Shown here: in pieces, positions 21,804 through 44,281 of the stretch
Position numbering within the stretch: position 1 is the stretch's first letter
Layout of the letters: every line of letters starts with the position of its first letter
DNA from: Nocardioides flavus (ex Wang et al. 2016)
GTDB taxonomy: Bacteria; Actinomycetota; Actinomycetes; Propionibacteriales; Nocardioidaceae
NCBI RefSeq assembly: GCF_014653115.1
Contig: NZ_BNAD01000004.1
Span: 1-64,000 of the forward strand
DNA length: 64,000 nucleotides
Direction: 5' to 3'
Program-made: the position numbers and the translations under genes
The notes under the pieces: model-generated
What the model saw: the letters and a program-made list of their open reading frames with translations, nothing else
Database searches by the model: none
Told to the model about the DNA's origin: nothing

Positions 21804-21813
21804 GGATGATCTC

Positions 21814-26564: not shown

Positions 26565-26614
26565 GCTGATCACCACCGTTGTCGTCGGTCCGGGCCTCGT
26601 TGCCCGGAATGGTG

Positions 26615-26726
26615 ATCAGGAGTGGTCTCTCCCGTCCCGGTTATGGGACCCGGTCGCCGGGCCGATCAGTCGGGGTGACAGCCGTGGTGACGTGCGACCG
26701 GAGGTGGGGTACTCCCCAACCCTGAT
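26615..26726 (-). promoter_or_regulatory. yybP-ykoY Mn2+ riboswitch 1
   Basis: On the minus strand the leader contains GGGGAGTA (26717-26710) and, 83 bases on, GGGAGAGACC ending at 26624. Supporting helices are ATCAGG/CCTGAT closing the element, CGGTCGC/GCGACCG (26700-26694 with 26657-26651) and GTCCC/GGGAC just before the AGACC loop. These are the L1 and L3 hallmarks of the yybP-ykoY family, in which Mn2+ bridges the two loops. The first gene starts about 50 bases later. Confidence 0.85.
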
Positions 26727-26734
26727 GTACGTAG

Positions 26735-26765
26735 ATCGTATCACGAAGTTTTCTTCGCATGTCAA
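26735..26765 (-). promoter_or_regulatory. Promoter 1 with inverted-repeat operator
   Basis: TTGACA (26765-26760) and a TGATACGAT -10 region ending at 26735 read leftwards into riboswitch 1. Between them is a perfect CGAAG-N4-CTTCG repeat (26744-26757). The -35 overlaps the stop codon of the upstream winged-helix gene. The same operator shape recurs at 41083-41096 and 45616-45629. Confidence 0.7.
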
Positions 26766-27055
26766 GGGGTGGCGGTGGTCTTGTTGACGAGGTCGACGAA
26801 GGCGCCGATGGTGACTCCGGACTCGAGGTCGTGGCGGAAGTGGGAGTCGCGGGTGACCCGGTACCGGTTGCGCCGACCCACCTTCTCCTTGTCCACGTAG
26901 CCGTGCTCGACCAGGTCCGCGACGATCTGCTGCACCGCCCTCTCGGTGATGCCGACGGCGTCGGCGATGTCGCGGGTCCGCGCGTCCGGGTCGCGCGCGA
27001 GGGCGACCAGGACGTGGCCGTGGTTGGAGAGGAAGGTCCAGTCGTCGCGGGTCAT
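26762..27055 (-). CDS. Winged-helix DNA-binding regulator
   Basis: This 97-residue protein is a single winged helix: TFLSNHGHVLVALARDPDAR, then the recognition segment DIADAVGITERAVQQIVADL and the wing GYVDKEKVGRRNRYRV. It resembles MarR/ArsR-like single-domain regulators without a visible metal-binding cysteine set. It follows the P-type ATPase by 47 bp in the same direction, and promoter 1 begins inside its stop codon. This makes it the best local candidate for the protein that binds the CGAAN-N4-NTTCG operators (inference). Confidence 0.82.
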   Translation of the reverse strand: MTRDDWTFLSNHGHVLVALARDPDARTRDIADAVGITERAVQQIVADLVEHGYVDKEKVGRRNRYRVTRDSHFRHDLESGVTIGAFVDLVNKTTATP

Positions 27056-27102
27056 GACGAGCCATGGTACGCGATTCTGGTTTCGTATGTCCCGGGTCGT
27101 CC

Positions 27103-29826
27103 TCAGCCTTCTCGTCGACGCGTGCCCCAGCGGTGGCCGAGCTTGACGAGCTCCTCGACCAACAGCACGCACAGCGCCACTCCGATGCAGATTCCCCACT
27201 GCTCGGGTGTGAGGGCGACGGTGTCGAAGATCGCCTGGCCCCACGTCGTGTGCACGGCTGCGATGTGCAGCAGGGCCACCGTCGTCAGGGACACCCACAG
27301 CCACCGGTTGGTGAAGGTGTGCGGTGCGAACACGGTGACGTGCTCCGCGCGTGCGTTGAGCGCGTTGACGAGCTGGAAGAGCACGAAGGTGGTGAAGGCC
27401 ATGGTCAGGCTGACGGCCTCGCCCCACTCCTCGCGGGCGAGGATGAGGACCGCGAGGGTGCCGATCGCCATCACCAGGCCCACGCGGGCCAGCCTGATCA
27501 GTCGCGCCGGGGAGAGGATCTGATCGCCGCTGCGTCGCGGGGGCTCGGACATGATCCCCGGCCGGGCCGGGTCCACGCCCAGCGCCATTGCGGGCGGGCC
27601 GTCCATGATGATGTTGACCCACAGGATCTGCACGGCCGTCAACGGGGCCGGCAGCCCCATCACCGAGGCGCCGAGGAAGGTCGAGATGGCGCCCATGTTG
27701 GTGGAGAGCTGAAAGCGCACGAACTTCACCACGTTGTCGTAGATCGAGCGACCCTCCTCGACGGCGCCGACGATGGTGGTGAAGTTGTCGTCGGTGAGGA
27801 TGAGGTCGCCCGCCTCCTTGGTGACCTCGGTTCCCGTCAGACCCATGGCCACGCCGATGTGCGCCGAGCGCAGCGCCGCGGCGTCGTTGACGCCATCACC
27901 AGTCATGGCCACGACATGGCCCCGCGCGGTGAGCGCCTTCACGATGGCGACCTTGTGCTCGGGAGACACCCGGGCGAACACCGCCACCTCGTCGACGACG
28001 TCGGCCAGCTCCTCGGTCGACAGCTCGGAGAGCTCGGCGCCGGTCATCGCGCGGCCCTCGATGCCGAGCTCGCGGGCGATGGCGACGGCGGTCGCGACGT
28101 GGTCGCCGGTGATCATCTTCACCCCCACACCGGCCCGGTGGCACAGGGCCACCGCCGAGGTCGCCTCGGGCCGCGGTGGGTCGGCGATCCCGAGCAGGCC
28201 GAGCAGGGTCAGCGACGCAACGTCGGAGTGTGGCTCGGATGACGGTGACTCGACCAGGCGGGTGGCCACGGCCAGCACGCGCAGTCCGCGCTCGCCCATT
28301 GCCGCGATGGCGTCGTCGAGTCGCTCTCGGTCGGACGCGGTGAGCGCAACCTCCTCGCCGCCGAGCAGCCACGAGTCGCAACGCCGCAGCAGCACGTCGG
28401 CCGCGCCCTTGGCCAGCACGCGGGAAGCGGGACCCTCGTCGTGGTAGGTGACCATGTACTTGTAGTCGGCGTCGAAGGGGATCTCCGCCGATCGCGGCCA
28501 CTCCTGACGGCGCGCCGTCACGTCGAGCCCCGCCTTGGCCGCCAGCACGACCAGCGCACCCTCGGTCGGGTCGCCGATGATGCCGGCGCTATCCCCATCC
28601 CCGTCGCCGTCCGCCTTGAGTTCGGCGTCGCTGCACAGGGCGAGTGCGTCGAGCAGCAGCGGCGGCAGGCTTGCTTGCGCGCCGTCGGAGTAGAGGATTT
28701 CGCCGTCGGTGTCGTATCCCTGGCCGTGGACCGTGAGCACGTTCTCGCCCACGCGTACCTCGCGGACCGTCATCTCGTTGAGGGTCAGGGTGCCGGTCTT
28801 GTCGCTGCAGATGACGGTGGCCGAGCCCAGTGTCTCGACCGAGGCCAGCCGCTTGACGATCGCGTTGCGGCCCGCCATCCGGTGCACGCCGAGCGCGAGC
28901 GTCAGCGCCAGTACGGCCGGCAGGCCCTCCGGGACGGTCGCCACCGCGAGCGCCACGGCTCGCAGGGCGATCTCGGAGGGGGCCTCGCCCCGCGCCAGGG
29001 CCAGCGCGACGTACACCGTCACGGCGACGAGCCCGATCACGGCCAGCCGCTTGCCCAGGGTGTCGAGCTGCCGCTGCAGGGGGGTCTGCGGCTCCTCGCC
29101 AGTGGCGAGCATCTCGGCGATGGCGCCGACGGAGGTCTCCATGCCGGTGGCGGTCACGACCGCTTCGGCCCGTCCGCGGGTGAGCGCGGTGTTCATGTGG
29201 ACCATGCCGTCGCGATCTGCGAGGGGGGCGTCGTGTTCTACGGTCGAGTTGGCCCGTTTGGGGACGGGCTGGGACTCACCGGTCAGGGCCGATTCGTCGA
29301 CCTCCACCGAGGAGGCGAGGATTAGGCGCGCGTCCGCGGGCACCCGGTCGCCCGCCTCGAGCAGGACGACGTCGCCGGGCACGAGGTCGCCGGCGTCGAC
29401 GACGAGGGTTCGCCCGTCGCGCCGGATCCGCGCCGAGGGGCTCAGCATGTTGCGTAGCGCCTCGAGGCTCTTCTCGGCTCGCTGCTCTTGGAAGAACCCG
29501 ATGCTGGCGTTGATGAGGAGCACCACGGCGATGACGATGGTGTCCTTGATCTCACCCACGAGGCCCGCGAGGACCGCGGCACCGATGAGCACCAGGATCA
29601 GGACGCTGCGGAACTGGTCGAGGAAGCGCAGCAGCACCGGTCGGCGTACGGGCTCGGCCAGCTGGTTGGGGCCGAACCGGTCGAGCCGTGTCCGGGCCTC
29701 CTCGCTGCTCAGGCCTTGGGCGGGGTCGACCTCCAGTGTCATGGCCACTTCCTCGGCGCTGGCGGCGTGCGGGTTGCTGAGTGGGGTGCTGTGCGGGGTG
29801 GTGCTGGGGACGGGTGCCGCGGTCAT
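27103..29826 (-). CDS. P-type cation ATPase, Ca2+/Mn2+-type (IIA-like)
   Basis: The intact 907-residue pump has an N-terminal cation-ATPase domain, DESALTGES, the TM4 motif VATVPEGLPAVLAL, the phosphorylation site SDKTGTLT, the hinge TGDGVNDAAAL and NIIMDGPPAMALGVDPA in TM6. PEGLPA plus the TM6 Asp pattern is that of SERCA/PMR1-like and bacterial Ca2+ pumps, some of which carry Mn2+. The start overlaps the V-ATPase B gene stop by four bases, so it is translated from the Mn-riboswitch-controlled V-ATPase transcript. Mn2+ export is therefore an attractive, unproven substrate assignment. Confidence 0.9.
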   Translation of the reverse strand: MTAAPVPSTTPHSTPLSNPHAASAEEVAMTLEVDPAQGLSSEEARTRLDRFGPNQLAEPVRRPVLLRFLDQFRSVLILVLIGAAVLAGLVGEIKDTIVIAVVLLINASIGFFQEQRAEKSLEALRNMLSPSARIRRDGRTLVVDAGDLVPGDVVLLEAGDRVPADARLILASSVEVDESALTGESQPVPKRANSTVEHDAPLADRDGMVHMNTALTRGRAEAVVTATGMETSVGAIAEMLATGEEPQTPLQRQLDTLGKRLAVIGLVAVTVYVALALARGEAPSEIALRAVALAVATVPEGLPAVLALTLALGVHRMAGRNAIVKRLASVETLGSATVICSDKTGTLTLNEMTVREVRVGENVLTVHGQGYDTDGEILYSDGAQASLPPLLLDALALCSDAELKADGDGDGDSAGIIGDPTEGALVVLAAKAGLDVTARRQEWPRSAEIPFDADYKYMVTYHDEGPASRVLAKGAADVLLRRCDSWLLGGEEVALTASDRERLDDAIAAMGERGLRVLAVATRLVESPSSEPHSDVASLTLLGLLGIADPPRPEATSAVALCHRAGVGVKMITGDHVATAVAIARELGIEGRAMTGAELSELSTEELADVVDEVAVFARVSPEHKVAIVKALTARGHVVAMTGDGVNDAAALRSAHIGVAMGLTGTEVTKEAGDLILTDDNFTTIVGAVEEGRSIYDNVVKFVRFQLSTNMGAISTFLGASVMGLPAPLTAVQILWVNIIMDGPPAMALGVDPARPGIMSEPPRRSGDQILSPARLIRLARVGLVMAIGTLAVLILAREEWGEAVSLTMAFTTFVLFQLVNALNARAEHVTVFAPHTFTNRWLWVSLTTVALLHIAAVHTTWGQAIFDTVALTPEQWGICIGVALCVLLVEELVKLGHRWGTRRREG

Positions 29827-31373
29827 GGCTGGCTCCAGGTGGTGCTCTTGGCGGTGCTCTCGGTGCGCTCGGTGGTGGTGGTGGTGCGGTGGTGCTGGGC
29901 GACGTGGTCGGCCCCGACCCGGCCTAGCTCGTCGGGCTCGAAGTCGCCGAGCAGTTCCCAGCCCAGGTCCAGGGTCTGGGTGATGGTCCGCCGGGCCTCG
30001 CCCTGGCCGACGAACTCCTCCTCGAAGCGACGGGCGAACGCGAGGTAGCGGCGGTCCTCGGCCGTCAGGCCGCTCTCGCCGACGATCGAGACCAGGCGCC
30101 GTACCTCGACGCCGCGGGCGTAGCAGGCGTAGAGCTGGTCGGCCAGACCCCGGTGGTCGGCCCGCGTACGCCCCGCGCCGACGCCGGCGTTCATCAGCCG
30201 CGACAGCGACGGCAGGACGTCGAAGGGCGGGTCGACGCCGCGTCCGGCCATGTCGCGCGAGAGGACCACCTGTCCCTCGGTGATGTAGCCGGTGAGGTCC
30301 GGGATCGGGTGGGTGATGTCGCCGTCGGGCATGGTCAGCAGCGACAGCTGGGTCAAGGAGCCGGTCGAGCCGTGCACCCGTCCCGCCCGCTCGAAGAGGG
30401 AGGCCAGATCGGTGTACATGTAGCCGGGGTAGCCGCGCCGCCCCGGCATCTCCTCGCGGGCCGCGGCGATCTCGCGCAGCGCCTCGCAGTACGCGGTGAT
30501 GTCGGTGAGGATCACCAGGACGTGCAGGTGCTTCTCGAAGGCGAGGTACTCGGCCAGCGTCAGCGCCACCCGGGGGGTGAGCAACCGCTCGATGGTGGGG
30601 TCGTCGGCCAGGTTGAGCAACAGCACATTGCGGTGCCCTGATGCGCTGGTGGCGAACTGGTCCCGGAAGAAGTCGGCCTCGCGGCGCGTGACGCCCATCG
30701 CTGCGAAGACGACCACTACTCCCTCGGTCCCGTCGGCCTGGTTGTCGTGTCTGGCCTCGCCGGGCACCCGGGCCTGGATGGCGATCCGGGCGGCCACCTC
30801 AGCGGCGGGCAGCCCGGCCGCGGTGAAGACGGGCAGCTTCTGCCCACGGACCAGGGTGTTGAGGCCATCGATGGCCGAGAAGCCGGTCTCGATGAACTGG
30901 TCGGGGTGGATCCGCGCGACGGGGTTGAGCGGCAGCCCGTTCACCGGCCGGTACGCCTCGGCGGTGGGCTCCGGCCGGCCGTCCCGCGGACGCCCGGCAC
31001 CGTCGAGGACGCGTCCCAGTACGTCGGTCCCGACGCCGGTGACCGCTGCGCGGAACCGCGCGCGCACGGCGACGTTGGCCCGGCCCATGCCCTCGGTGCC
31101 GCCGAGCACCTGAACCACCGCGCGGGAGCGGTCCACCTCGAGGACCTGGCCGTCGCGTTCCGTGCCGTCGTCGGTGACGACGGTGACGACGTCGCCGAAC
31201 GCTACGGCCTCGGCGCCCTCGACCAGCAGCAGCGGCCCGGCCACCCGGCGTACGTCGCGCATCTCGATCGTGGGCAGGATGCCCACGGGTGCGACGGCGA
31301 CGGCGTCCCGCGCGCGGGTGATCGTGTCCGCGGTGTCTTCCGGGCTGTCTTTGGAGCTGTCCAGCGTGGTCAT
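29823..31373 (-). CDS. ntpB: V/A-type ATPase subunit B
   Basis: This 516-residue non-catalytic nucleotide-binding subunit of the V1/A1 head has the N-terminal barrel (EMRDVRRVAGPLLLVEG), GFSAIDGLNTLVRGQKLP, FFRDQFATSASGHRNVLLLN and GYPGYMYTDLASLFERAG. As expected for B, it lacks a canonical P-loop. The C-terminal ~30 residues are a Thr/Glu-rich extension (HHRTTTTTERTESTAKS). It is coupled to subunit A upstream and to the P-type ATPase downstream by ATGA overlaps. Confidence 0.95.
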   Translation of the reverse strand: MTTLDSSKDSPEDTADTITRARDAVAVAPVGILPTIEMRDVRRVAGPLLLVEGAEAVAFGDVVTVVTDDGTERDGQVLEVDRSRAVVQVLGGTEGMGRANVAVRARFRAAVTGVGTDVLGRVLDGAGRPRDGRPEPTAEAYRPVNGLPLNPVARIHPDQFIETGFSAIDGLNTLVRGQKLPVFTAAGLPAAEVAARIAIQARVPGEARHDNQADGTEGVVVVFAAMGVTRREADFFRDQFATSASGHRNVLLLNLADDPTIERLLTPRVALTLAEYLAFEKHLHVLVILTDITAYCEALREIAAAREEMPGRRGYPGYMYTDLASLFERAGRVHGSTGSLTQLSLLTMPDGDITHPIPDLTGYITEGQVVLSRDMAGRGVDPPFDVLPSLSRLMNAGVGAGRTRADHRGLADQLYACYARGVEVRRLVSIVGESGLTAEDRRYLAFARRFEEEFVGQGEARRTITQTLDLGWELLGDFEPDELGRVGADHVAQHHRTTTTTERTESTAKSTTWSQP

Positions 31374-33220
31374 CGCTGCTCCTCCTCGTCGGTGGTGAGT
31401 GCCGCGCGCTCCTCAGTAGCGCGCTCTTTGGTGGTGAGTGCGGCGTGCATGGTCGAGACGGCGTCGTCGAGGTGTCGCTCGAGCGTGTCGTCGACCGGCC
31501 AGCCACGTGCTGCGGCGACCGTGCGCAGGACGGGGTGGGCGACGACGTCGGCGACGGGTCGCCCGGCGGTGACCGCAGCGGTCATGGCCTCCTCGGCCGA
31601 CTTGATCAGTCGCAGCATCGTGACCTGCTTGGCCGGCGGACAGCTGGCGTCGGCGGGGTCGAAGGAGTTCTGCTGCAGGTAGTCCTCGCGGAGCATGCGA
31701 CCCACGCGCAGGGTGACTCGCTGGGGCGGCGCTACCGCCTCCACGCCCAGGAGGCTGACCACCTCCTGCAGGCTCCCTTCCTCCTGCAGCGTGCGGACGG
31801 CCCAGGCGCTGAGGCGCGACCAGTCCTCGGCGACGTGCTCGTCGAACCACTCGCCCAGCCGGTAGGTGGTGTAGCTGCGTGTCCAGTTGATCGACGGGAA
31901 GTGGCGGCTGCGGGCCAGGCTCGCATCGAGCGCCCAGAAGCATCCGGCCACGCGCAGGCTGTTCTGGGTGACCGGCTCGGAGAAGTCCCCGCCTGCGGGC
32001 GACACGGCGCCGACGACGGTGACCGACCCGCTACGCGGGGTGGAGCCGAGGCAGTCGACGAGCCCGGCGCGCTCATAGAAGGCCGCGAGGCGGGTGGCGA
32101 GGTAGGCGGGGTAGCCGTCCTCGGCCGGGATCTCGCCGAGACGACCCGACACCTCGCGCAGTGCCTCGCCCCAGCGGCTGGTGGAGTCGGCGAGCAGGAC
32201 GGCGTGCAGGCCTTGGTCGCGGTAGTACTCGGCCATCGTGATGCCGAGGTAGACGCTGGCCTCCCGGGCCGCGACCGGCATGTTGGAGGTGTTGGCCACG
32301 AGCACGGTCCGCTCCATCAGGGGGCGACCGGTGCGCGGGTCAGAGAGCTGTGGGAACTCCTCGAGCACCTCGGTCAGCTCGTTGCCCCGCTCGCCGCAGC
32401 CGACGTAGACCACCACGTCGGCCTCGGCGTGCTTGGCGATCGCCTGCTCGAGCACCGTCTTGCCGGTGCCGAATCCGCCGGGGATGATGCCGGCACCGCC
32501 GAGGGCGATCGGGAAGAGGCTGTCGAGGACCCGCTGGCCGGTGAGCAGCGGGCGGTGCAGGGCCTGGTGTCCCCGCACGGGACGGGGCCTGCGGATCGGC
32601 CAGCGTTGCAGCATTTGCACGTCGTGGCCCTGGACGCGGGCGATGACCTCGTCGACGCGGTGCGACCCCTCCGCGACGTGCTCCACCACGCCGCGGACGC
32701 CCGGCGGCACCAGGACGCGGTGGCGCAGCGCTGTGGTCTCCTGCACGGTCCCGAGCTCGTCGCCCGCCTCCACGCGGTCGCCCGCCACCACGGACGGCAC
32801 GAACTCCCAGGTCCGGGAGCGGTCGAGGCCGGGCAGGTCGGCGCCGCGCGGGATGTAGATGCCGTGTTCGGCGTTCAGGGCGGCGAGCGGGCGCTGGGTG
32901 CCGTCGAACACGGTGCCGAGCAGCCCGGGGCCGAGTTCGATGGTCAGCGGTCCCCCGGTGCCGGTCACGGGGTCGCCGACGCGCAGCCCCGAGGTGTCCT
33001 CGAAGACCTGTACCGTGGCCAGGGCGCCGTCGAGGCGGATCACCTCCCCGGGCAGGTCCTGCGGGCCGACCTTGACCACGTCGTAGAGCCGGCACGCGGG
33101 TAGGCCAGCGACCTCGAGGACTGGGCCCGAGACCCGCACCACCGTCCCGACCTGGTCGCCGGAACCGGCCGGCGCGCCGCCGTGTGTCGTGCTCGGCATC
33201 GTGGTGGGTGTCGTGCTCAT
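31370..33220 (-). CDS. ntpA: V/A-type ATPase catalytic subunit A
   Basis: This 616-residue catalytic subunit has the P-loop GGFGTGKT at residues 248-255, GCGERGNEL, the A-type bulge domain (residues about 110-190, GIYIPRGADLP..) and YPAYLATRLAAFYERAG. The ATG at 33220 overlaps the F-subunit stop. An N-terminal Thr/Ser-rich stretch of about 20 residues is extra. The length is slightly above the usual 580-600. A key catalytic Glu is present in the GERGNE segment, so it should be active. Confidence 0.96.
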   Translation of the reverse strand: MSTTPTTMPSTTHGGAPAGSGDQVGTVVRVSGPVLEVAGLPACRLYDVVKVGPQDLPGEVIRLDGALATVQVFEDTSGLRVGDPVTGTGGPLTIELGPGLLGTVFDGTQRPLAALNAEHGIYIPRGADLPGLDRSRTWEFVPSVVAGDRVEAGDELGTVQETTALRHRVLVPPGVRGVVEHVAEGSHRVDEVIARVQGHDVQMLQRWPIRRPRPVRGHQALHRPLLTGQRVLDSLFPIALGGAGIIPGGFGTGKTVLEQAIAKHAEADVVVYVGCGERGNELTEVLEEFPQLSDPRTGRPLMERTVLVANTSNMPVAAREASVYLGITMAEYYRDQGLHAVLLADSTSRWGEALREVSGRLGEIPAEDGYPAYLATRLAAFYERAGLVDCLGSTPRSGSVTVVGAVSPAGGDFSEPVTQNSLRVAGCFWALDASLARSRHFPSINWTRSYTTYRLGEWFDEHVAEDWSRLSAWAVRTLQEEGSLQEVVSLLGVEAVAPPQRVTLRVGRMLREDYLQQNSFDPADASCPPAKQVTMLRLIKSAEEAMTAAVTAGRPVADVVAHPVLRTVAAARGWPVDDTLERHLDDAVSTMHAALTTKERATEERAALTTDEEEQR

Positions 33221-33633
33221 GGGTGGTCTCCTTCGGGGACGAAGCTGATCTCGTAGCCGACCGCTCGTCCGAGCAGTCGCTGGAGCTGGTCGTGGGGCTC
33301 GGTGTCCACGGCCGGGGCGTCGGGCGGGAGGCCGACCACGAGGACGTCGGTGCGCTCGGCCCAGGCATCGCGGGCGGCGAGTGGCAGTCGAGTCCACGCG
33401 TCGTGGTGCACCAAGACCACCGCGCGGCCGTCGCCGGGCAGGCGCACAGCTGTCTCGACAGCTCTGTTGACGGCGTCGGCTCCGATCTCCCCGTCCGGGC
33501 CGGGCTCGGGCACCACCGTCGCGGCGCCCGCGAGGCGGAAGCCCGCGTCGACGTCTCGCGGAGCCACCACGACGACCTCCGAGTCCACTTCTGAGTCCAT
33601 CCGTGGCGCTGAGGGGGTAAGCGCGTTCGTCAC
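33217..33633 (-). CDS. V/A-type ATPase subunit F
   Basis: The 138-residue subunit of the central stalk carries a Rossmann-like F-subunit core (VVVVAPRDVDAGFRLAGAATV, AVVLVHHDAW and a C-terminal LLGRAVGYEISF). Function is inferred chiefly from operon position between C and A. A GTG start at 33633 overlaps the C-subunit stop. The first 17 residues (TNALTPSAPRM..) are a non-conserved lead. Confidence 0.8.
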   Translation of the reverse strand: MTNALTPSAPRMDSEVDSEVVVVAPRDVDAGFRLAGAATVVPEPGPDGEIGADAVNRAVETAVRLPGDGRAVVLVHHDAWTRLPLAARDAWAERTDVLVVGLPPDAPAVDTEPHDQLQRLLGRAVGYEISFVPEGDHP

Positions 33634-35143: not shown

Positions 35144-35144
35144 G

Positions 35145-35366
35145 TCAGCCGCCCAGCAGGAGCACGATCATGGCCGCGACCGCGAAGCCCAGGATGACGA
35201 GCGTCTCGGGGATGGCCACGAGCAGGATGGCCCGACCGGCGAGCTCGGGCTTCTCGGCGATGGCTCCCATGGCCGCCGCGCCGATCCGCGCCTGGGCGTA
35301 GCCGGTGGCGAGGGCGGCGAGGCCGACGGCGAGTCCTGCTCCGAGGGCGATGAGTCCGGTTTCCAT
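35145..35366 (-). CDS. ntpK: V/A-type ATPase rotor subunit K (c)
   Basis: This 73-residue hairpin of two membrane helices forms the ion-binding rotor ring: GAGLAVGLAALATGYAQARIG, a polar loop (EKPELAGR) and AIPETLVILGFAVAAMI with the carboxylate E54 followed by T55. It is a single-hairpin proteolipid, unlike the four-helix Enterococcus NtpK. The PET motif is typical of A/V-type rings. Whether it carries H+ or Na+ cannot be settled from the sequence. It lies 5 bp after the I gene. Confidence 0.93.
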   Translation of the reverse strand: METGLIALGAGLAVGLAALATGYAQARIGAAAMGAIAEKPELAGRAILLVAIPETLVILGFAVAAMIVLLLGG

Positions 35367-35371
35367 GTGTG

Positions 35372-37465: not shown

Positions 37466-37869
37466 CGGCTCGCCTTCGGGGTCCGGTCGGCCCGCTGGGC
37501 CACGGTCGGGGCCACGGTCGGGGCCACGGGCGGGGTCACGGTCGGGGCGACGGTCAGGACGGCGGCGACGGTGGCGGCGACGAGCTCCTCCCGCAGGCGC
37601 ACGGCCCGCTGCGTCACCTCGACGCCGATCCGCTGCTGTTCGGCCTCGTCGGCCTGTACCCATTCGCGTGCCTCCTGCAAGATACGCGCGGACAGGCGGT
37701 CGGCTTCCGCGGCGGCTTCCGCGGCGAACTCCCCCACGAGGAGCTCCGCCTGCTCCCGGGCCGCGACAACGCGGGCGTTGCTCTGCCGCGCCTCCTCGAG
37801 ACGGGCCTCGATAAGCCGCTCTAGCTCGCGCACCTGGCGCATCGCGGCCGGATCCTGCATCTGCGTCAT
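37462..37869 (-). CDS. V/A-type ATPase peripheral-stalk subunit (G/H-like)
   Basis: The 135-residue, almost wholly helical protein (RELERLIEARLEEARQSNARVVAAREQAELLVGEF, broken only for length) is rich in Ala/Glu/Arg, as stalk subunits that pair with E are. The C-terminal part carries a three-copy PTVAP/PPVAP repeat before the end. The identification rests on composition and on operon position between D and I. Confidence 0.75.
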   Translation of the reverse strand: MTQMQDPAAMRQVRELERLIEARLEEARQSNARVVAAREQAELLVGEFAAEAAAEADRLSARILQEAREWVQADEAEQQRIGVEVTQRAVRLREELVAATVAAVLTVAPTVTPPVAPTVAPTVAQRADRTPKASR

Positions 37870-38552
37870 CGCCGTTCCTCCTCGTCGGGTCGCGGCACGG
37901 GAGGATGGTCCGGTGCCGGTCGGTCCTGCGGGACGCGACGTCGCTCCCGCGCCCGCTTCAGGCGGGAGTGCTCCTCACGCTCGCGCTCCTCGAGGACCGC
38001 GGTGATGTGGGCGGCCTCCTCCTCGAGTCCGGGGATGACGACGTTCTCGAGCGCGTTGACCTGGCGCGTGGTGCGGGCCACTTCCTCGGTGAGCCGGCGC
38101 ACCGTGGCCTCGAGGGCCACGAAGCGCAGGACGTGCTCGAGGTACCGCTCGTAGGCCTCCGCCGCCGCCTCGATCGACGGGGCCACCAGCACCGGTGCCG
38201 CGCCGCGCTCCTCGGCCGTCCGTCGCAGGTCGTTGGCCTGCACCGTCACGACCCGCACGCCGACCACCATGCGGTCCTCGCGCTCGGCGACGACGCCGTT
38301 GGCCGCACCCGACGCGACCGCCGCGACGGCGGCCGGGCCCTCGTCGGCGGTGCTCTCGGCGAGCAGCGCGCGAGCCTCCCGGGCGAGGACGGCGGCGGCC
38401 TCACGCTGGGCGGACACGTCTGCGTCGAGACGGTGCAACTCGCGCACCAGGGCCATCCGCTTGTCGACCAGAAGGTCACGGCCCTGGGCCGCGAAGGCGA
38501 TCGCCGAGCGACGCCGCAGCAGCTCGGTCCGGGTCGCGGTCAGGGCCGTCAT
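37866..38552 (-). CDS. ntpD: V/A-type ATPase subunit D (central stalk)
   Basis: The 228-residue protein begins MTALTATRTELLRRRSAI, typical of D, continues as two long antiparallel helices and has TTRQVNALENVVIPGLEEEAAHI, the strongest D-subunit signature. The C terminus is a basic then Pro-rich tail. An in-frame GTG at 38561 exists, but the ATG at 38552 has GGGGTGG at good spacing. D is normally last in ntp operons; here it is first, directly behind riboswitch 2. Confidence 0.92.
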   Translation of the reverse strand: MTALTATRTELLRRRSAIAFAAQGRDLLVDKRMALVRELHRLDADVSAQREAAAVLAREARALLAESTADEGPAAVAAVASGAANGVVAEREDRMVVGVRVVTVQANDLRRTAEERGAAPVLVAPSIEAAAEAYERYLEHVLRFVALEATVRRLTEEVARTTRQVNALENVVIPGLEEEAAHITAVLEEREREEHSRLKRARERRRVPQDRPAPDHPPVPRPDEEERR

Positions 38553-38652
38553 CGCCGCCACCCCGCAGGGCCGACCCGCCCGGGCGGACGGCGCCGATCC
38601 TTCAGCCGGTCACGAAGTAGCTGAGTATTCACGGAGAATGCCTCCCGACAGT

Positions 38653-38756
38653 GGTCGGAAGGTCTTCCCCGCCACACCCCGGGAGGTGTGGTCGGCCACC
38701 GGGTCGCAGGACGACCGGAGTGACGATGGCCGGTTGGTGGGGTACTCCCCTTCAAG
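38653..38756 (-). promoter_or_regulatory. yybP-ykoY Mn2+ riboswitch 2 (V-ATPase leader)
   Basis: On the minus strand GGGGAGTACCCCACC starts at 38750 and GGGGAAGACC ends at 38661. Closing pairs GAAGG/CCTTC, P2-like CGGCCA/TGGCCG (38732-38727 with 38698-38693) and a 7-bp hairpin CCACACC/GGTGTGG immediately before the AGACC loop reproduce the family fold with different sequence from copies 1, 3 and 4. The aptamer ends about 100 bases before the ntpD start. Confidence 0.85.
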
Positions 38757-38771
38757 GGTTTCTTACGCATC

Positions 38772-38800
38772 AGATTACGTGAATCGTGCTGCGGTGTCAA
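38772..38800 (-). promoter_or_regulatory. Promoter 2 (V-ATPase operon)
   Basis: TTGACA (38800-38795), a 17-bp spacer and TAATCT (38777-38772) form a near-ideal housekeeping-type promoter reading into riboswitch 2. Unlike promoters 1, 3 and 5, its spacer has no perfect CGAAN-N4-NTTCG repeat. It starts within 10 bp of the upstream baeRF stop. Confidence 0.78.
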
Positions 38801-38808
38801 GGTTGGCA

Positions 38809-39942
38809 CTAGCGCCGCAGGACCAGCGCAATCCGGTCATGGTTCGCGAGGTCGCCGTCGGCCACCAGCGCCAGCTGGCCGCCCATCAAGATCACCTGCT
38901 CCATCAGGTCGTCCACCAAGTCATGCACGTCGCCGGCCCCGGAGGCATCCCCGGAGGCGTTCCCTGAGGAGTTCGCAGGAGCCCCGCGTCCGGGTGCCGT
39001 CGTGCCTGGACTGATGAAGTTCTCCTCGACCAGCAGCATCGCGGGCAGGCGTCGCCCGAGGGCCCGCCAGCACTGCTCGATGCCCGAGGCCACGTCCGTG
39101 GGTCGATCCGACTCTGCCTGGCGCAGCAGCGCGAGTGCGTCGTCGCGTCGTGTCCGCAGGTACGCCTCGACGGACGTGATGCCGGCCAGGGCCAGGTCGA
39201 GGGCCGTGGCGCAGTCGCGGTCATCAACCCGCCCGGCGAGCCGCTCCAGATTGGCACTGAGGGAGCAGAACTCCTCGAGCAACCGCGGCGGACCCACCAG
39301 CACGAGCGGGCTCGGGTGGTCGGCCCGGTAGTCGCCCAGCATCCGGTCGACCTTGCGCAGGAACCTGGCCATCAGCTCCGTTCGGGCCTCGGCGGCGCCC
39401 GGCTGTCCGGCACCCGGCACCCGGATCGGCCGCCCCGAGCCAAACGGCTCGGACCGTCCCACTGGGCGCAGTCCGCCGTCCTCGGAGGCGTACAGGTGGG
39501 CGCACGTGGGGTGTAGCAGCAGCACGGCGTGGGGTGGCATGCGGTGCAGGGCCGCGATGAGCGGCCGAGTGGCGAAGGTGCTCTCCACCACCGCCCGGGC
39601 GGTCACCGACTGTGGCAGCCGGAACGAGCGGGCGACGGCCCGGTTCACGTAGATGCACAGCCCCAGGTCGGTCGGCTGGTCTCCCGCGCGGTCGACCTGC
39701 TCGGCCAGCTTGTCCAGCAGCGCGGACCGGTTCATCACGCCACGCTCGGCGAGCGTGTGTTCCACGTCTCGGACCAGGTCGTCCAACCTCGACCGGTCCT
39801 CCCTGGTCATGCGCGGGGACGGCTTCGTCGGCAGGAGGACCGAGATGCACGGAAAGCCGGAGGTGATCGCCAGGTCGGCGATGTCCCTGGTCCTCAGCGC
39901 CACCGGCGAACCGCCCGCCTTGGGACGCGTGCGGGGGCTCAT
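38809..39942 (-). CDS. Bacterial release-factor-like (baeRF) family protein, copy 2
   Basis: This 377-residue paralog of the protein at 24360-25538 shares SGFPCISVLLPTKPSPRM, VVESTFATRPLIAALHRMPPHAVLLLHP, SANLERLAGRVDD and IEQCWRALGRRLPAMLLVEENF. It carries an extra Gly/Ser/Asp-rich insert near residue 325. The start overlaps the terC stop (ATGA), so it is the second gene of the terC operon under riboswitch 3. Molecular role unknown; ribosome-associated stress function is inferred from the family. Confidence 0.72.
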   Translation of the reverse strand: MSPRTRPKAGGSPVALRTRDIADLAITSGFPCISVLLPTKPSPRMTREDRSRLDDLVRDVEHTLAERGVMNRSALLDKLAEQVDRAGDQPTDLGLCIYVNRAVARSFRLPQSVTARAVVESTFATRPLIAALHRMPPHAVLLLHPTCAHLYASEDGGLRPVGRSEPFGSGRPIRVPGAGQPGAAEARTELMARFLRKVDRMLGDYRADHPSPLVLVGPPRLLEEFCSLSANLERLAGRVDDRDCATALDLALAGITSVEAYLRTRRDDALALLRQAESDRPTDVASGIEQCWRALGRRLPAMLLVEENFISPGTTAPGRGAPANSSGNASGDASGAGDVHDLVDDLMEQVILMGGQLALVADGDLANHDRIALVLRR

Positions 39943-40910
39943 CGCAGCACCTCGTCCTCGTCGGACGCGTGGGCCGGCGTCGCGTGGGGGGCGACGGTGG
40001 CCTGGTCACGAGTCGCGCGGAGACTGGCGATGACCGCAACGGCGATGCAGCTGGCGATCACGCCGAGGGAGAGCCAGATCGGAACCTTGTAGACGTCGAG
40101 GAGCAGCATCTTGATGCCGACGAAGACCAAGATCGCGGCGAGGCCGGCCTTGAGGTAGATGAAGCGGTCGATGAGATCGGCGAGCAGGAAGTACATCGCT
40201 CGAAGGCCCAGGATGGCGAAGGCGTTGCTGGTGAAGACCAGGAACGGGTCCTGGGTGACGGCGAAGATCGCGGGGATGGAGTCGACGGCGAAGATGATGT
40301 CAGTGGTCTCGACCATGATGAGGACGAAGAACAGCGGCGTGGCCACCCACTTGCCCGCCTGCTTCACCCAGAACTTCTGCCCGTGGTACTCCTCCGTCGA
40401 GGGGATCTTCCTCTTGGCCAGTGCCAGCAGCTTGTTGCGCGAGAGGTCCATCTGGTCGTCGCGGTGGCGGAACATCTTCCAGCCCGTGTATACGAGGAAG
40501 GCGCCGAAGAGGTAGAGGATCCAGGCGAAGTTCTCGATCAGGACCGCGCCACCGGCGATGAAGATCGCCCGGAAGACCAGTGCCCCGAGGACGCCGTAGA
40601 ACAGGACCCGGTGCTGGTACTCCCGCGGCACGGCGAAGTAGGTGAAGATCAGCGCGAAGACGAAGACGTTGTCGACCGCCAGCGACTTCTCGATCAGGTA
40701 CCCGGCGTAGTACTCGCCGCCGGCCTGGGCGCCGTAGGCCCACCAGACGATGCCGCCGAACGTCAGGCCGAGGCTGACCCAGACCGCGGACCAGGCGGCA
40801 GCCTCCTTGACACCGACGACGTGAGCGGTGCGGTGGGCGAACAGGTCGATCGCCAGCATCACGACGATGACGCCCAGCACCGCCGCCCAGGCCCAGAAGG
40901 GAACATCCAT
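39939..40910 (-). CDS. terC: TerC/Alx-family membrane protein (Mn2+ efflux-associated)
   Basis: The 323-residue protein has about nine membrane helices with the family acidic motifs: EKSLAVDNVFVFALIF, GWKMFRHRDDQMDL and ETTDIIFAVDSIPAIFAVTQDPFLVFTSN. TerC/Alx proteins export or handle Mn2+, and E. coli alx is under a yybP-ykoY riboswitch. The same arrangement here (riboswitch 3 upstream) strongly supports a role in Mn2+ homeostasis. First gene of a two-gene operon with baeRF copy 2. Confidence 0.93.
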   Translation of the reverse strand: MDVPFWAWAAVLGVIVVMLAIDLFAHRTAHVVGVKEAAAWSAVWVSLGLTFGGIVWWAYGAQAGGEYYAGYLIEKSLAVDNVFVFALIFTYFAVPREYQHRVLFYGVLGALVFRAIFIAGGAVLIENFAWILYLFGAFLVYTGWKMFRHRDDQMDLSRNKLLALAKRKIPSTEEYHGQKFWVKQAGKWVATPLFFVLIMVETTDIIFAVDSIPAIFAVTQDPFLVFTSNAFAILGLRAMYFLLADLIDRFIYLKAGLAAILVFVGIKMLLLDVYKVPIWLSLGVIASCIAVAVIASLRATRDQATVAPHATPAHASDEDEVLR

Positions 40911-40950
40911 GACAGCTATACCTCCAGCGTGACCACTCGACCAACAGCCG

Positions 40951-41072
40951 AGCGTGACGTTGGAGGTCTCCCCCGCCGCCCGGTCCGTGGACCTGGCGAC
41001 CGCCGCACCGGACCGGGCAGGGCCGGTCGAACTGTCGATGTCAGCGAGGGTGGGGTACTCCCCTCATGCGCT
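40951..41072 (-). promoter_or_regulatory. yybP-ykoY Mn2+ riboswitch 3 (terC leader)
   Basis: On the minus strand GGGGAGTACCCCACC starts at 41063 and GGGGGAGACC ends at 40965. Closing pairs include AGCG/CGCT at the ends and GAGG/CCTC next to the loops, and GGTCC/GGACC forms a hairpin shortly before the AGACC loop. A terC gene downstream is a classic partner of this riboswitch class, which anchors the identification of the other three copies. Confidence 0.88.
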
Positions 41073-41104
41073 ACAGTATTCACGAAGCACACTTCGGAAG
41101 TCAA
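41073..41104 (-). promoter_or_regulatory. Promoter 3 with inverted-repeat operator (terC/heliorhodopsin gap)
   Basis: TTGACT (41104-41099) and an AATACTGT -10 region read leftwards to riboswitch 3. The spacer holds the perfect CGAAG-N4-CTTCG repeat (41083-41096). The heliorhodopsin gene starts only 23 bp to the right in the other direction, so the same operator could control both. Confidence 0.68.
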
Positions 41105-41126
41105 GTCCCGCACACGAGGAGCGACC

Positions 41127-41927
41127 ATGTCCGGCCAGCACCGCGAACCATCTCCCGATCCGCTTGCTCCCGAGGTGGAAGCCTTGGCTCCGAAACTGCG
41201 ACGCGACAACCTGGTAGCAGCCGTGCTCCACCTCGCCCAGGCCGTCGCGGTCCTCGCCCTGGCCACCAGCTTCGCACTCCCAGTCACCGGGACCTACCTC
41301 GCCGGCCCACCCGGAACGACGCCGGAGGAGCAGGTCGTTCTCTTCGACGTCCCAACCGGTGCCGCGGTGGCAGCGTTCCTCCTGTTGTCCGCGCTGGCCC
41401 ACGTCGTCGTCACCACCACCTGGGGGGCCGGCTACCGGGCCGACCTCGCCCGACGCCGCAACCGGGCTCGCTGGATCGAGTACTCCGTGTCCTCGTCGCT
41501 GATGATCGTGCTGATCGCCCAGCTGGTCGGGATCTCCGACGTCGCGGCCCTGCTGGCGCTGTTCGGCGTCAACGCCTCGATGATCCTGTTCGGGTGGCTC
41601 CAAGAGCACTACGAGGACCCGGGCTCGCGCGGCTGGCTGCCGTTCATCTTCGGGTGTGCCGCCGGGATCGTGCCGTGGCTCGCGATCACGGTCTACCTGG
41701 TGTCACCGCAGTCCACCTCCGGGGCCGAGCCGCCCGCCTTCGTCTACGGCATCTTCGTGTCGCTCTTCGCCTTCTTCAACGTCTTCGCCCTCAACCAATG
41801 GCTGCAGTACCGCGGCCTCGGACGGTGGCGCGACTACCTGTTCGGCGAACGGGTCTACATCCTGCTCAGCCTCGTCGCGAAGTCAGCGCTGTCCTGGCAG
41901 GTGTTCGCCGGCACCCTTGCCAGCTGA
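41127..41927 (+). CDS. Heliorhodopsin
   Basis: This 266-residue seven-helix protein matches the heliorhodopsin family rather than type 1 rhodopsins. It has ARWIEYSVSSSLMIVLIAQL (E118, the counterion position), LFGVNASMILFGWLQE and a last helix GERVYILLSLVAKSALSWQVF with the retinal-binding K252. H35 and H92 lie where the family has two conserved internal His. Family members bind all-trans retinal, do not pump ions strongly and have an inverted topology. A GAGGAG ribosome site precedes the ATG. It is the only rightward cargo gene between terC and the right-end mobility genes. No retinal-forming oxygenase is in the window. Confidence 0.93.
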   Translation: MSGQHREPSPDPLAPEVEALAPKLRRDNLVAAVLHLAQAVAVLALATSFALPVTGTYLAGPPGTTPEEQVVLFDVPTGAAVAAFLLLSALAHVVVTTTWGAGYRADLARRRNRARWIEYSVSSSLMIVLIAQLVGISDVAALLALFGVNASMILFGWLQEHYEDPGSRGWLPFIFGCAAGIVPWLAITVYLVSPQSTSGAEPPAFVYGIFVSLFAFFNVFALNQWLQYRGLGRWRDYLFGERVYILLSLVAKSALSWQVFAGTLAS

Positions 41928-41942
41928 CCTCACCACTGGAGC

Positions 41943-43511
41943 TCACCACTGGCTGCTGCCGCAGTTCGGAGCGTCGGCGAGTCGCCGTTCGACGTCGGCG
42001 CGGACCAGGACGTTGTACCCGCAGATCGTGGCGGCCGGCTCGTAGTGCTCCTCGATCATGGAGCGGAGTCGGCCGTCGTCATCGATGTCCCACGAGTTCA
42101 CCCCGTTCAACACGACGAACCAGGTCGGCCGCGAGGGTCCGTCGAGCAGGCGCTCGAGGCGCTGCTGGTCCGGGTCGAGGGTCCGCATCGGCAGGCTCCA
42201 GAGGTAGGGGTAGGGAGTGGGCAGGTCGGCCGCCTCCACGACCTGCGAGTTCCCGTACGCGACCACCATCGTGTCGCCCTCCTCGGCGGAGTCGGCCACC
42301 CACCCGCCGATGAGCTGGGGGTACCACAGCCGCGGCGAGGCCTGGTAGGCGAGCGTGGTGGTGGCCACTGCCCCCAGCGACGCGACCGCCGCCCACAGCG
42401 CCAAGCCGCGCATCAGCCGCCGCCCGGCGCCACGGCCGGCGCTCACCAGACCCGCCGCGAGGCCCGCAGCGGGAGCCAACGCCTGCAGGTAGTCCAGCCA
42501 GTAGCTCCCCCCGACCACGATGCCGATCGCGCTCCACCCGAGCAGGGCGAGCAATGCCCACTGCTCGGCCGCGAGAGGGCGAGGCCGACGCAGCAACCCA
42601 ACCAGCCAGGTCATCACGACAGGCACAGCCGCACTGGCCACGGCGGCGAGCACGAGGAGCCGAGCGCGCTCCATCGGTGCCGAGTGGTGGGACGCGGCCA
42701 GCACCTGTCCCGCCTCGACACGGAAGGCGATCACGTCCTCCCACATCACGTCCATCGCGACCCCCTTGAGGTGGGCCCACGCCGCCAGCGCTGCGACGAC
42801 GACGACGGTGCCCGCACCGAAGCCGGCGGCCAGCGTGCCGAGCCGCGTCCGAGACCCCGGATGCCGCAGCGCCGAGACCGCGATCAGCACCCCGGCGAAG
42901 GCGAACGCGTCGACGAAGTTCTGCTTCGCCAACGGCGCAGCGGCAGCGAGCACACCGGCGACCAGCCCCCAGCCGACGGTCGTGCGGAGGTCACCGGCTC
43001 GCCAACCGTGCAGAATCGCGGCGATGCTACCCGTGACGAAGAGGAGCGCGAACATCACGCCGTCGGCCTGATCGGCCGCCAGCGCCGGGGAGCACATCAG
43101 AGCCGCCGTCACCACCGCTGCCCACCTCGCCGCGACCGGGCCGGCCAGCAGGCCGGCGGCGCGAGCGGTCGCCAGCACGATCGCCACGACCACCGGGATC
43201 GTGATGACCCGGATCGCCGCGTCGGTGTCCCACAGGGCCGCCAGGCGGAAGAACGCCATCAGCAACGGCGGCCGGTCGACGTGGAAGTCGCCGTAGATGA
43301 ACTCGCCCTCGCCCGGCGCCCAGTGGCGCGCAGCATGCAGGTACCCACCCTCATCGGAACGAATCGGCTGGGCCACGAAGACCGAGCGAACCGCCACTAC
43401 AGCCGCACAGGTCAGCCACAGGACACGCGTGGTGACGCGCTCGTCGTACGAACGACCGGGCCGATTCGCGGGACCGGGCGCTGCCGGGCGGTCCGCCAGC
43501 GCGGTGTCCAT
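41943..43511 (-). CDS. GT39-like integral membrane glycosyltransferase
   Basis: This 522-residue membrane protein has an early luminal-type acidic motif (FVAQPIRSDEGGYLHAARHW), about ten helices and a soluble C-terminal domain of about 130 residues (DTMVVAYGNSQVVEAADLPTPYPYLWS). This is the layout of dolichyl-phosphate-mannose/ArnT-like (GT39/GT83) transferases that use polyprenyl-phosphate sugars. The start ATG shares one base with the stop of the DUF2784 gene. Target is unknown. Confidence 0.75.
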   Translation of the reverse strand: MDTALADRPAAPGPANRPGRSYDERVTTRVLWLTCAAVVAVRSVFVAQPIRSDEGGYLHAARHWAPGEGEFIYGDFHVDRPPLLMAFFRLAALWDTDAAIRVITIPVVVAIVLATARAAGLLAGPVAARWAAVVTAALMCSPALAADQADGVMFALLFVTGSIAAILHGWRAGDLRTTVGWGLVAGVLAAAAPLAKQNFVDAFAFAGVLIAVSALRHPGSRTRLGTLAAGFGAGTVVVVAALAAWAHLKGVAMDVMWEDVIAFRVEAGQVLAASHHSAPMERARLLVLAAVASAAVPVVMTWLVGLLRRPRPLAAEQWALLALLGWSAIGIVVGGSYWLDYLQALAPAAGLAAGLVSAGRGAGRRLMRGLALWAAVASLGAVATTTLAYQASPRLWYPQLIGGWVADSAEEGDTMVVAYGNSQVVEAADLPTPYPYLWSLPMRTLDPDQQRLERLLDGPSRPTWFVVLNGVNSWDIDDDGRLRSMIEEHYEPAATICGYNVLVRADVERRLADAPNCGSSQW

Positions 43512-43930
43512 CACCCGGGCTCGGCTCCTGGTGAGCTCGCGCTCGCCGTCGCGGCTCGTTCGCCGGCACCCTGCTCCGCACGCCGTCGGAGCCGCAACAC
43601 CACGTAGGCGTACGTCGCGAGGATGACCACCAGGTGGGTCGCGTACACGAAGGTCTGGGTGCCGTCGGGGAGCAGGATCCCGAAGACGTAGTGGTCGAGG
43701 AAGGAACCGGAGTACGGCGTGCCACCGGCGCGTTCGACCAGGTCCTTCTCGAGCACCGTCAGGGGACAGCTGCCCTGAGTGATGACGATGCCGACCCCCC
43801 ACGACACCACGGCGAGGTGCGGGACGAACCACACCCGCGACACGAGGGCAAGCAGGGCGCCGAGCATCTGGAAGACCAGGAACGCCAGGTGCAGGAGGAC
43901 GACGGCCCACGCCATCAGGGTCCAGGCCAT
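43511..43930 (-). CDS. DUF2784-family membrane protein
   Basis: The 139-residue protein has four membrane helices and the family features HLAVVSWGVGIVITQGSCPLTVLEKDL and SGSFLDHYVFGILLP. Function of the family is unknown. The tail is Ala/Ser/Glu-rich. It is overlapped by the GT39-like gene and preceded by a long leader that contains riboswitch 4. Confidence 0.8.
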   Translation of the reverse strand: MAWTLMAWAVVLLHLAFLVFQMLGALLALVSRVWFVPHLAVVSWGVGIVITQGSCPLTVLEKDLVERAGGTPYSGSFLDHYVFGILLPDGTQTFVYATHLVVILATYAYVVLRLRRRAEQGAGERAATASASSPGAEPG

Positions 43931-43997
43931 CGCAGTACCCCTCTCGGCCCTCGCCCGCCAGTGACGCCAAGGATGACGGAGCCGCTCGCCGGGGCGG

Positions 43998-44141
43998 TCA
44001 CATCCACCGCTGGCGGGGCGTCCGCGGTTTGGTCGCTACGACCATGCGTCGGACCGCACTGACGAGACGACCACCTGGAGAGGCGAACCAGGTTGGCCAC
44101 GCCCCTTGGGTCCGACCGGAGACCTGAATCTTGAACATCAT
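43998..44141 (-). CDS. Possible 47-residue leader ORF behind riboswitch 4
   Basis: ATGATGTTC at 44141 is preceded by GGGGGGCGTCC, which nearly repeats the GGGGAGGCGTCC before the ATGATG of the gene at 26370. It lies 42 bases after the aptamer, the distance at which the other riboswitch-controlled genes start. The peptide is basic with no recognised motif. It could be a small gene, a decayed first gene, or chance. Confidence 0.3.
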   Translation of the reverse strand: MMFKIQVSGRTQGAWPTWFASPGGRLVSAVRRMVVATKPRTPRQRWM

Positions 44142-44182
44142 GGACGCCCCCCGAATCTCGGCGAGCCGTTCCTACGTCTCGC

Positions 44183-44276
44183 TGCGGATGGTCTCTCCCG
44201 TCCCTGGCGGGACCGGGCTCCGGGAGCCGTTGGCACCGTGTTGACGAAGCCCGCCACGGGGATACTCCCCATTGCA
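44183..44276 (-). promoter_or_regulatory. yybP-ykoY Mn2+ riboswitch 4 (DUF2784/GT39 leader)
   Basis: On the minus strand GGGGAGTATCCCC starts at 44270 and GACGGGAGAGACC ends at 44190. TGC..ATGG/CCAT..GCA close the element, GGGCT/AGCCC forms a P2-like helix (44252-44248 with 44219-44215) and GTCCC/GGGAC the hairpin before the AGACC loop. The DUF2784 start is 253 bases further on, so the expression platform may act on the small ORF at 44141 or by transcription termination. Confidence 0.83.
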
Positions 44277-44281
44277 CGAAC

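Follow-up and report, generated by a model that had tools for sequence, protein, structure and literature searches.

The 64,000-nucleotide stretch of Nocardioides flavus (ex Wang et al. 2016) analysed here (contig NZ_BNAD01000004.1, positions 1 to 64,000; hereafter the window) contains a 35-kb element inserted in a tRNA-Val gene. This element carries four compact RNA leaders that resemble the yybP-ykoY Mn2+ riboswitch and, as read from the sequence, probably switch the genes behind them on when Mn2+ is high. An initial annotation of this DNA had proposed four yybP-ykoY leaders on the minus strand, one of them before terC, that place four gene sets of a mobile island under one class of metalloregulatory RNA.

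Leader motif and common fold

The leaders, named A to D, are given below with their scores against R1, a covariance model described in the next section.

26616-26724, minus strand: leader A, Mn2+-riboswitch-like RNA (R1 77 bits; three-way junction)
38653-38757, minus strand: leader B, Mn2+-riboswitch-like RNA, 5' of V-ATPase and P-type ATPase genes (R1 68.5 bits)
40957-41070, minus strand: leader C, Mn2+-riboswitch-like RNA, 5' of terC (R1 72.7 bits)
44182-44277, minus strand: leader D, Mn2+-riboswitch-like RNA (R1 72.5 bits)

Each leader holds one copy of GGGGAGTA (26710-26717, 38743-38750, 41056-41063 and 44263-44270 in A, B, C and D), followed on its 3' side by AGACC. The window has no further copy; all four are on the minus strand, 0.65 would be expected, and none of 100 shuffled sequences reached four. 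The sites proposed by the initial annotation were thus all confirmed, as was its remark that the helices change letters and stay paired, with GAAGG/CCTTC, GAGG/CCTC and ATGG/CCAT as versions of the outer helix.

The unconstrained minimum-energy folds of leaders A-D disagree (z-scores -1.0 to -2.0), and in A, B and D they pair GGGG with the CCCC after it; the shape described here therefore rests on comparison and not on energy alone. For comparative folding, the conserved loop letters GGAGTA and AGA were kept single-stranded and nothing else was forced. This gave one common three-way junction in seven leaders, namely A-D, two on contig C9 of the host genome and one in a further genome (G011). 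Its order is an outer helix P1.1, an internal loop L1, a helix P1.2 and then arms P3 and P4, with P3 bearing a one-sided 7-nt bulge, L3. No P2 hairpin was predicted between P1.2 and P3.1 in the leaders, which makes the junction three-way and not four-way as in the crystal structures.

Probable kinship with the yybP-ykoY riboswitch

R1 was built from the same seven leaders. On the window it scores leaders A-D, all of them training sequences, at 68.5-77 bits, and the next match reaches 9.7 bits. Within the genus, 127 of 147 genomes have an R1 match (E up to 0.01), and within the class 150 of 246 have one (E up to 0.001), both searches having been run under stricter filters, which lose weak matches. 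R1 also marks eight places in the host genome, only half of which lie in the element; the regulon is thus wider than the four leaders of the initial annotation.

The Rfam model of the class, RF00080, has a cut-off of 45 bits. At E up to 0.001 it finds places in 3 of 58 relatives and 7 of 246 class genomes, above cut-off in none, and in 14 control genomes it gave matches in 4 and 3, above cut-off in 2 both times. All ten weak places from the relatives and the class genomes overlap R1 matches. One of them is an R1 training sequence, that of G011 (31 bits), and precedes a GDT1-family gene.

The alignment comprises 81 leaders, 74 of them distinct, fitted to R1 and hence favouring P1.1, P1.2, P3.2 and P4. 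Pairing reaches 95.0% of cells across the 74 distinct leaders, with changes on both sides in 21 of 26 pairs. Taken singly, the five helices P1.1, P1.2, P3.1, P3.2 and P4 have 89.7-98.9% of their cells paired, and P3.1, which is absent from R1, still has six pairs with both-side changes. Sliding the helix partners lowers pairing to 35-49%, and the observed value was matched on none of five measures by any of 500 shuffles, of a kind that does not remove relatedness among the leaders.

The loops agree with the known Mn2+ site. Columns 9-15 (GGGAGTA) and 179-182 (AGAC) of the L1 strands (GGGGAGUA and AGAC) do not vary in any of the 81 leaders; in place of the first G of GGGGAGTA, 16 of them have A. 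In the solved aptamers, as described in PMC6754395, L3 reads ACAUACU (Xanthomonas oryzae) or UCAAUUC (Lactococcus lactis), and the base at position 3 of this loop (A48 or A41) contacts Mn2+ via N7. L3 of leaders A-D reads UCACCAC, UCACUCC, ACAGUUC and UCAACAC, and the third base, equivalent to A41/A48, is A in 80 of the 81 leaders. In the exception, L079, the model apparently misplaced the loop, and a fitting GTCGACATGC stretch comes later in the row.

The genes behind the relatives point the same way. We surveyed the open reading frame (ORF) most likely to be coding directly behind the leader, one per locus, at 53 picked from 74 (L011-L039 and L053-L078, minus L014 and L021, which repeat the island); these loci are the best-scoring ones and not a random draw. 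They yielded 39 GDT1, 11 TerC and 1 baeRF. Because L1, the L3 adenosine and covarying helices are conserved, and GDT1 or TerC follows in 50 of 53 loci, the leaders are most likely kin of the yybP-ykoY Mn2+ riboswitch, and a compact form of it. The family identity proposed earlier is supported in this sense of a relative, and not as an RF00080 match above threshold.

The mobile element and its copies

The element spans 35.2 kb, is inserted in tRNA-Val and is bounded by 22-bp repeats.

21814-21835, no strand: left attachment repeat, 22 bp, GGTGGGCGATACTGGGTTCGAA, identical to the tRNA-Val 3' end at 57037-57058
21989-23089, plus strand: tyrosine integrase of the element (PF00589, 4e-19)
53491-56262, plus strand: TrwC-type relaxase (PF08751, 1.1e-52)
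57037-57110, minus strand: tRNA-Val (CAC), the integration site, whose 3' end is the right repeat (57037-57058)

With attachment repeats at a tRNA, an integrase and a relaxase, it fits the definition of an integrative mobilizable element, and small helix-turn-helix genes also lie between the repeats. Actinobacterial elements of this kind combine a tRNA site, a tyrosine integrase, a TrwC relaxase and small helix-turn-helix genes. The present one differs in its cargo, a four-riboswitch ion-transport regulon that is also found beside another integrase in Janibacter. No match to the relaxase was found on plasmids.

Of eleven relatives that share the tRNA flank, five (L091, L092, L093, L096 and L101) have an empty site, where sequence corresponding to about 21771-21835 joins the sequence right of 57037 at a single copy of the repeat. 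On the left side the matching stretch spans just 61-68 bases (82-92% identity), and genes further left of the empty sites were not found within these short loci.

Four copies are known besides that of the window, two of them near identical to it. In a second species (G143) the element sits at the same tRNA with 99.77% identity over 35.25 kb, between flanks of 78.5% and 84.5%. Janibacter terrae NBRC 107853, which belongs to the Micrococcales and not to the Propionibacteriales of Nocardioides, carries the 27.9-kb cargo of window positions 25147-53041, which is 99.0-99.9% identical there and includes the same set of four leaders. The fetched Janibacter flanks have no match to the window integrase or relaxase; a different integrase, 28% identical to that of the window, adjoins the cargo. 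A member of another family (G390) has 24342-39827 at about 88% on one contig, with leader types A and B, and Nocardioides ferulae (G080), of the same genus, has most of the cargo, rearranged, at 71-85%. The earlier proposals of four gene sets under one RNA class on one mobile element, and of a set that moves as a unit, are borne out by the position of leaders A-D inside the element and by its recurrence at 99.8% in a second species and 99.0-99.9% in another order. Mobility of the leader set as a unit is supported by these sequence comparisons.

In a further genome (G138, locus L097, matching window 55552-59204) the same tRNA adjoins a right end of the element that is 88% identical and comprises the end of the relaxase gene and helix-turn-helix genes; the three R1 matches of that genome sit on other contigs. 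The vehicle seen there may bring different cargo. Left of the element, 18294-21161 holds a type III polyketide synthase-like gene and a flavin-binding protein, in a stretch 78% conserved in G143.

Gene sets behind the leaders

The genes of the four groups, each listed from its leader outward, are followed by two features of the cargo that have no scoring leader.

26367-26564, minus strand: 65-aa protein, probably membrane-embedded, first behind leader A (from its translation; no Pfam match)
25591-26370, minus strand: 259-aa protein, leader-A group, whose start and the stop of the 65-aa gene overlap (Pfam gave no match for the longer ORF, 25591-26493)
24360-25700, minus strand: baeRF family 3 protein, second copy, leader-A group (PF18845 1.5e-6, slightly under cut-off; NF052287, a ribosome hibernation factor family, also under cut-off)
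38549-38632, minus strand: putative open frame of 27 aa that follows leader B and runs into the start of subunit D (read from the sequence)
37866-38552, minus strand: V/A-ATPase subunit D (PF01813, 6e-36)
35372-37663, minus strand: V/A-ATPase subunit I (PF01496; V-type subunit I models under their cut-offs)
35145-35372, minus strand: V/A-ATPase rotor subunit K (c), 75 aa (PF00137, 1.5e-17)
34511-35143, minus strand: probable V/A-ATPase subunit E (PF01991 3e-4, under cut-off)
33630-34514, minus strand: V/A-ATPase subunit C (AC39) (PF01992, 5e-8)
33217-33597, minus strand: probable V/A-ATPase subunit F (PF01990 0.0015, under cut-off; position)
31370-33397, minus strand: V/A-ATPase subunit A (PF00006, PF16886)
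29823-31373, minus strand: V/A-ATPase subunit B (PF00006)
27103-29826, minus strand: P-type cation ATPase, Ca2+-pump-like (PF00689, PF00122)
26762-27061, minus strand: winged-helix protein (MarR-like), 99 aa (PF12802, 35 bits, cut-off 27)
39939-40910, minus strand: TerC/Alx family protein, behind leader C (TIGR03718 R_switched_Alx, 435 bits, cut-off 246)
38809-39942, minus strand: baeRF family 3 protein, next after terC (PF18845, 8.7e-13)
43998-44141, minus strand: 47-aa open frame, first behind leader D (protein-level likeness kept in Nocardioides ferulae, by eye)
43511-43930, minus strand: DUF2784 membrane protein, leader-D group (PF10861, 1.1e-22)
41943-43496, minus strand: membrane protein, glycosyltransferase-like by eye, leader-D group; start uncertain (no Pfam match)
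44679-45452, minus strand: universal stress protein, with a dyad upstream and no scoring leader (PF00582)
45810-52630, minus strand: Mrp cation/proton antiporter genes and a Na+/Ca2+ exchanger, no leader (PF03334, PF04066, PF01899, PF00420, PF00361; PF01699)

The TIGR03718 score agrees with the initial annotation that one copy, leader C, precedes terC. Behind leader B the order is the 27-aa frame, V/A-ATPase subunits D, I, K, E, C, F, A and B, the P-type cation ATPase and the 99-aa winged-helix protein, and spacing and overlaps suggest that these genes form one transcript; an ORF at 37462-37869 within the V-ATPase run is without a family. The best NCBIfam model for the P-type ATPase is the PMR1-type TIGR01522 (762 bits, under its cut-off of 798), and the PMCA-type TIGR01517 scores 508.3, barely above its cut-off of 507.05. 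The rotor subunit K has a glutamine in helix one and a PET motif in helix two, a combination that can accompany coupling to Na+ instead of H+.

On contig C9, in N. ferulae and in G390, leaders of the same type are followed by homologues of the 65-aa protein, and a large protein database gave four homologues among nine candidates, all unnamed. The 47-aa frame behind leader D is likely a real small protein, judging by its likeness in N. ferulae. Genes for V-ATPase F, A and B and for a P-type ATPase also occur on a plasmid of Pseudonocardia broussonetiae, with about 76% identity across two pieces. A leader was not found in front of them, but one of 41 bits on the same plasmid precedes a 190-aa protein and a baeRF gene, so the island is not alone in having baeRF behind this RNA.

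We considered and rejected a fifth leader ahead of the stress-protein gene, the best R1 score there being 6 bits; it is at most a decayed copy. The region upstream of that gene (45430-45640) has GGCTTGGGGGGTCC after the dyad and later GGTGGTGATCTGCATG, as behind leader A, and looks like a decayed fifth leader. Upstream of leader C, 41196-41915 is a conserved stretch that occurs in opposite orientation near a leader in another genome (G082).

A dyad and its candidate reader

Three exact sites of a dyad, CGAA-N6-TTCGTGA, accompany these genes.

26741-26757, minus strand: dyad directly upstream of leader A (likely operator)
41080-41096, minus strand: dyad in the spacer of the promoter-like site before leader C
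45613-45629, minus strand: dyad upstream of the stress-protein gene

The expectation for the window is 0.04 sites, and the shorter CGAA-N6-TTCG is confined to the same three places. In the 4.18-Mb host genome CGAA-N6-TTCGTSA has six sites and a reversed control pattern none. Five of the six are at the regulon, three in the element and two at the terC and small-protein leaders of C9, and the sixth precedes an unrelated-looking ORF. Among 76 distinct leader upstream stretches, CGAA-N6-TTCG is present in 0 of 43 before GDT1 and in 14 of the 33 others (7 of 16 before terC). The winged-helix gene adjoins leader-A-type leaders in other genomes too, and the C9 locus (G000:C9:109195-110867, L008) unites terC, winged-helix and small-protein genes with two leaders and two dyads; this locus is likely an ancestor or counterpart of part of the island.

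It is likely that the dyad is an operator read by the element's own winged-helix protein, and its placement suggests a second, protein-based control layer. The dyad upstream of two leaders and a stress-protein gene is new here. Two observations speak against control of this kind: leaders D and B keep 7 of 8 dyad letters (at a shifted site) and 6 of 8, and the exact dyad was not found with the winged-helix kin in L113, L114/L115 and L073. A SOS (LexA) box was set aside as an identity for the dyad, whose sites have A..T or other letters outside CGAA..TTCG and G or C inside. The SOS box reads TCGAAC-N4-GTTCGA.

Proposed mechanism and competing explanations

In the mechanism that we propose, each leader's gene group would be one operon. 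Mn2+ would dock L1 onto L3 and would stabilise helix P1.1, an effect on P1.1 that is described for characterised members (PMC6754395, PMC11087558). When Mn2+ is lacking, the 3' strand of P1.1 would instead pair downstream and hide the ribosome-binding site, so that Mn2+ would turn translation on. The winged-helix protein beside leader A may read the CGAA-N6-TTCG dyad, with protein and RNA acting in series. Such a circuit is predicted to export Mn2+, and perhaps Ca2+ as well; the V-ATPase would possibly adjust the ion gradient, and the baeRF proteins are predicted to protect ribosomes. That the leaders are ON at high Mn2+ is most likely by family precedent, and not from this analysis.

The alternative helix between the P1.1 3' strand and a downstream strand has a mean score of 7.66 in the 74 leaders vs 5.49 in shuffles, with p at most 0.05 in 39 of them (60 shuffles each), and in leaders B and C the downstream strand includes the likely ribosome-binding site. 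Control by a terminator was rejected, as 26.5-44.4 kb has three terminator-like sites vs 3.1 expected and none directly behind a leader.

Several results weigh against a mobile set of Mn2+ switches working in this way. Many of the 39 leaders with a significant alternative helix are related GDT1 leaders; those of the island are not among the significant ones (p of 0.93, 0.38, 0.22 and 1.00 for A-D), nor are the two on C9. When P1.1 is forced, predicted access to the ribosome-binding region rises clearly for leader B alone (0.18 to 0.34), the others going from 0.05 to 0.06 (A), from 0.24 to 0.28 (C) or staying unchanged (D). The genes behind leaders A and D include no known metal genes. A conjugative plasmid of Arthrobacter sp. 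U41 (L115) has two TerC genes, a P-type ATPase, a Ca/Na antiporter and three winged-helix kin, and neither an R1 leader at E up to 0.1 nor an exact dyad was found on it. No coupling protein or secretion apparatus was recognised among the element ORFs scanned with Pfam, some small ORFs being outside that scan; the element would therefore need a helper. Finally, the scan with RF00080 that was to support the initial annotation fails as worded. The window has no match at the gathering threshold, 26-45 kb has none at E up to 10, and of the leaders scanned singly only D gave a score, 7.0 bits, with no RF00080 line for A-C. By the criterion set in the initial annotation, this outcome would count as a refutation. 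As a test of family RF00080 is weak here because it passes its cut-off in 0 of the 246 class genomes, and its use alone for this purpose was set aside.

Leaders of this same RNA family could mainly report Ca2+ or a mixed divalent-ion load, which we consider unlikely. The cargo does have a Ca2+-type P-type ATPase and a Ca/Na exchanger, the P2-less shape could shift selectivity, and the three-way mgtA member of Streptococcus pneumoniae is described as binding Ca2+ tighter than Mn2+ (PMC9495176). The same source, however, describes in vitro mgtA transcription as activated more by Mn2+ than by Ca2+; the adenosine whose N7 confers Mn2+ selectivity is present in all but one of the 81 leaders, and the first genes of the relatives are mostly GDT1 (UPF0016) or TerC, families linked to Mn2+ export (PMC13274385). 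In another explanation the leaders belong to a different ligand class and merely resemble a Mn2+ riboswitch. Their escape from RF00080 and the missing P2 would fit such a class, but the L1 and L3 letters fit the Mn2+ site, every weak RF00080 place coincides with an R1 match and GDT1 and TerC predominate downstream, so that we regard this explanation as extremely improbable.

It is also conceivable, at a small probability, that the promoters are run mainly by the winged-helix protein at the dyad and that the riboswitches are inherited baggage of little weight. The concentration of genomic dyads at the regulon agrees with this, as does the stress-protein gene, which retains a dyad without a scoring leader. 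Against it, leaders B and D lack a full dyad yet retain the RNA, the fold and loop letters are retained in all four RNAs, and the GDT1 leaders, none of which has a dyad, retain the RNA alone. Four compact yybP-ykoY-like switches on a mobile element thus stay the probable reading. A more far-reaching one, for which we see the chances as evenly balanced, is that the 28-kb cassette is a complete Mn2+-response program (four riboswitches, a winged-helix regulator with its operator, a V-ATPase/P-type-ATPase operon, terC and ribosome-protection factors) that is passed between unrelated integrative vehicles and across orders and inherited as a unit.

Comparison with known systems and implications

The leaders share with yybP-ykoY (RF00080; structures from L. 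lactis and X. oryzae) the L1 strands GGGGAGUA and AGACC, a 7-nt L3 with A at its third position, the helices P1.1, P1.2, P3.1, P3.2 and P4, and Mn2+-export gene families downstream. They differ in having no predicted P2, a three-way junction and scores far under that of Rfam, and some have an operator-like dyad directly upstream. Compared by description, the S. pneumoniae mgtA Mn2+ riboswitch likewise has a three-way junction and a P-type Mn2+/Ca2+ ATPase, but is presented as single-gene control in a Firmicute (PMC9495176). The terC leader of Corynebacterium glutamicum, again by description, is an actinobacterial Mn2+-type leader before terC; unlike ours it reached the Rfam yybP-ykoY model, at 49.13 bits, and was seen by RNAseq (PMC3890552). 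The Na+-I riboswitch is described as an ion riboswitch tied to V-type ATPase genes (PMC9337991), but is another RNA class for another ion, and its model RF03071 scored 12.1 bits at most, on the opposite strand (cut-off 40.5).

Mn2+ riboswitches before terC, UPF0016 (GDT1) and P-type ATPase genes are already known, according to PMC13274385 and PMC9495176, and a 2013 survey counts the yybP-ykoY class among widely distributed motifs (PMC3766115). Among the matches listed from the open-licence literature, no report was found of a mobile multi-operon Mn2+-riboswitch regulon, or of V-ATPase genes behind a Mn2+-type riboswitch.

Accounts of riboswitches usually place them on the chromosome, operon by operon. 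Here one mobile cassette unites four copies of one likely ion-sensing RNA with their apparent target pumps, and a recipient would gain sensing and response in a single step. V-ATPase genes behind a Mn2+-type leader would link Mn2+ to cell energetics. More widely, what is most likely a form of the Mn2+ riboswitch, present in 150 of the 246 sampled class genomes, escapes the standard Rfam model at its cut-off.

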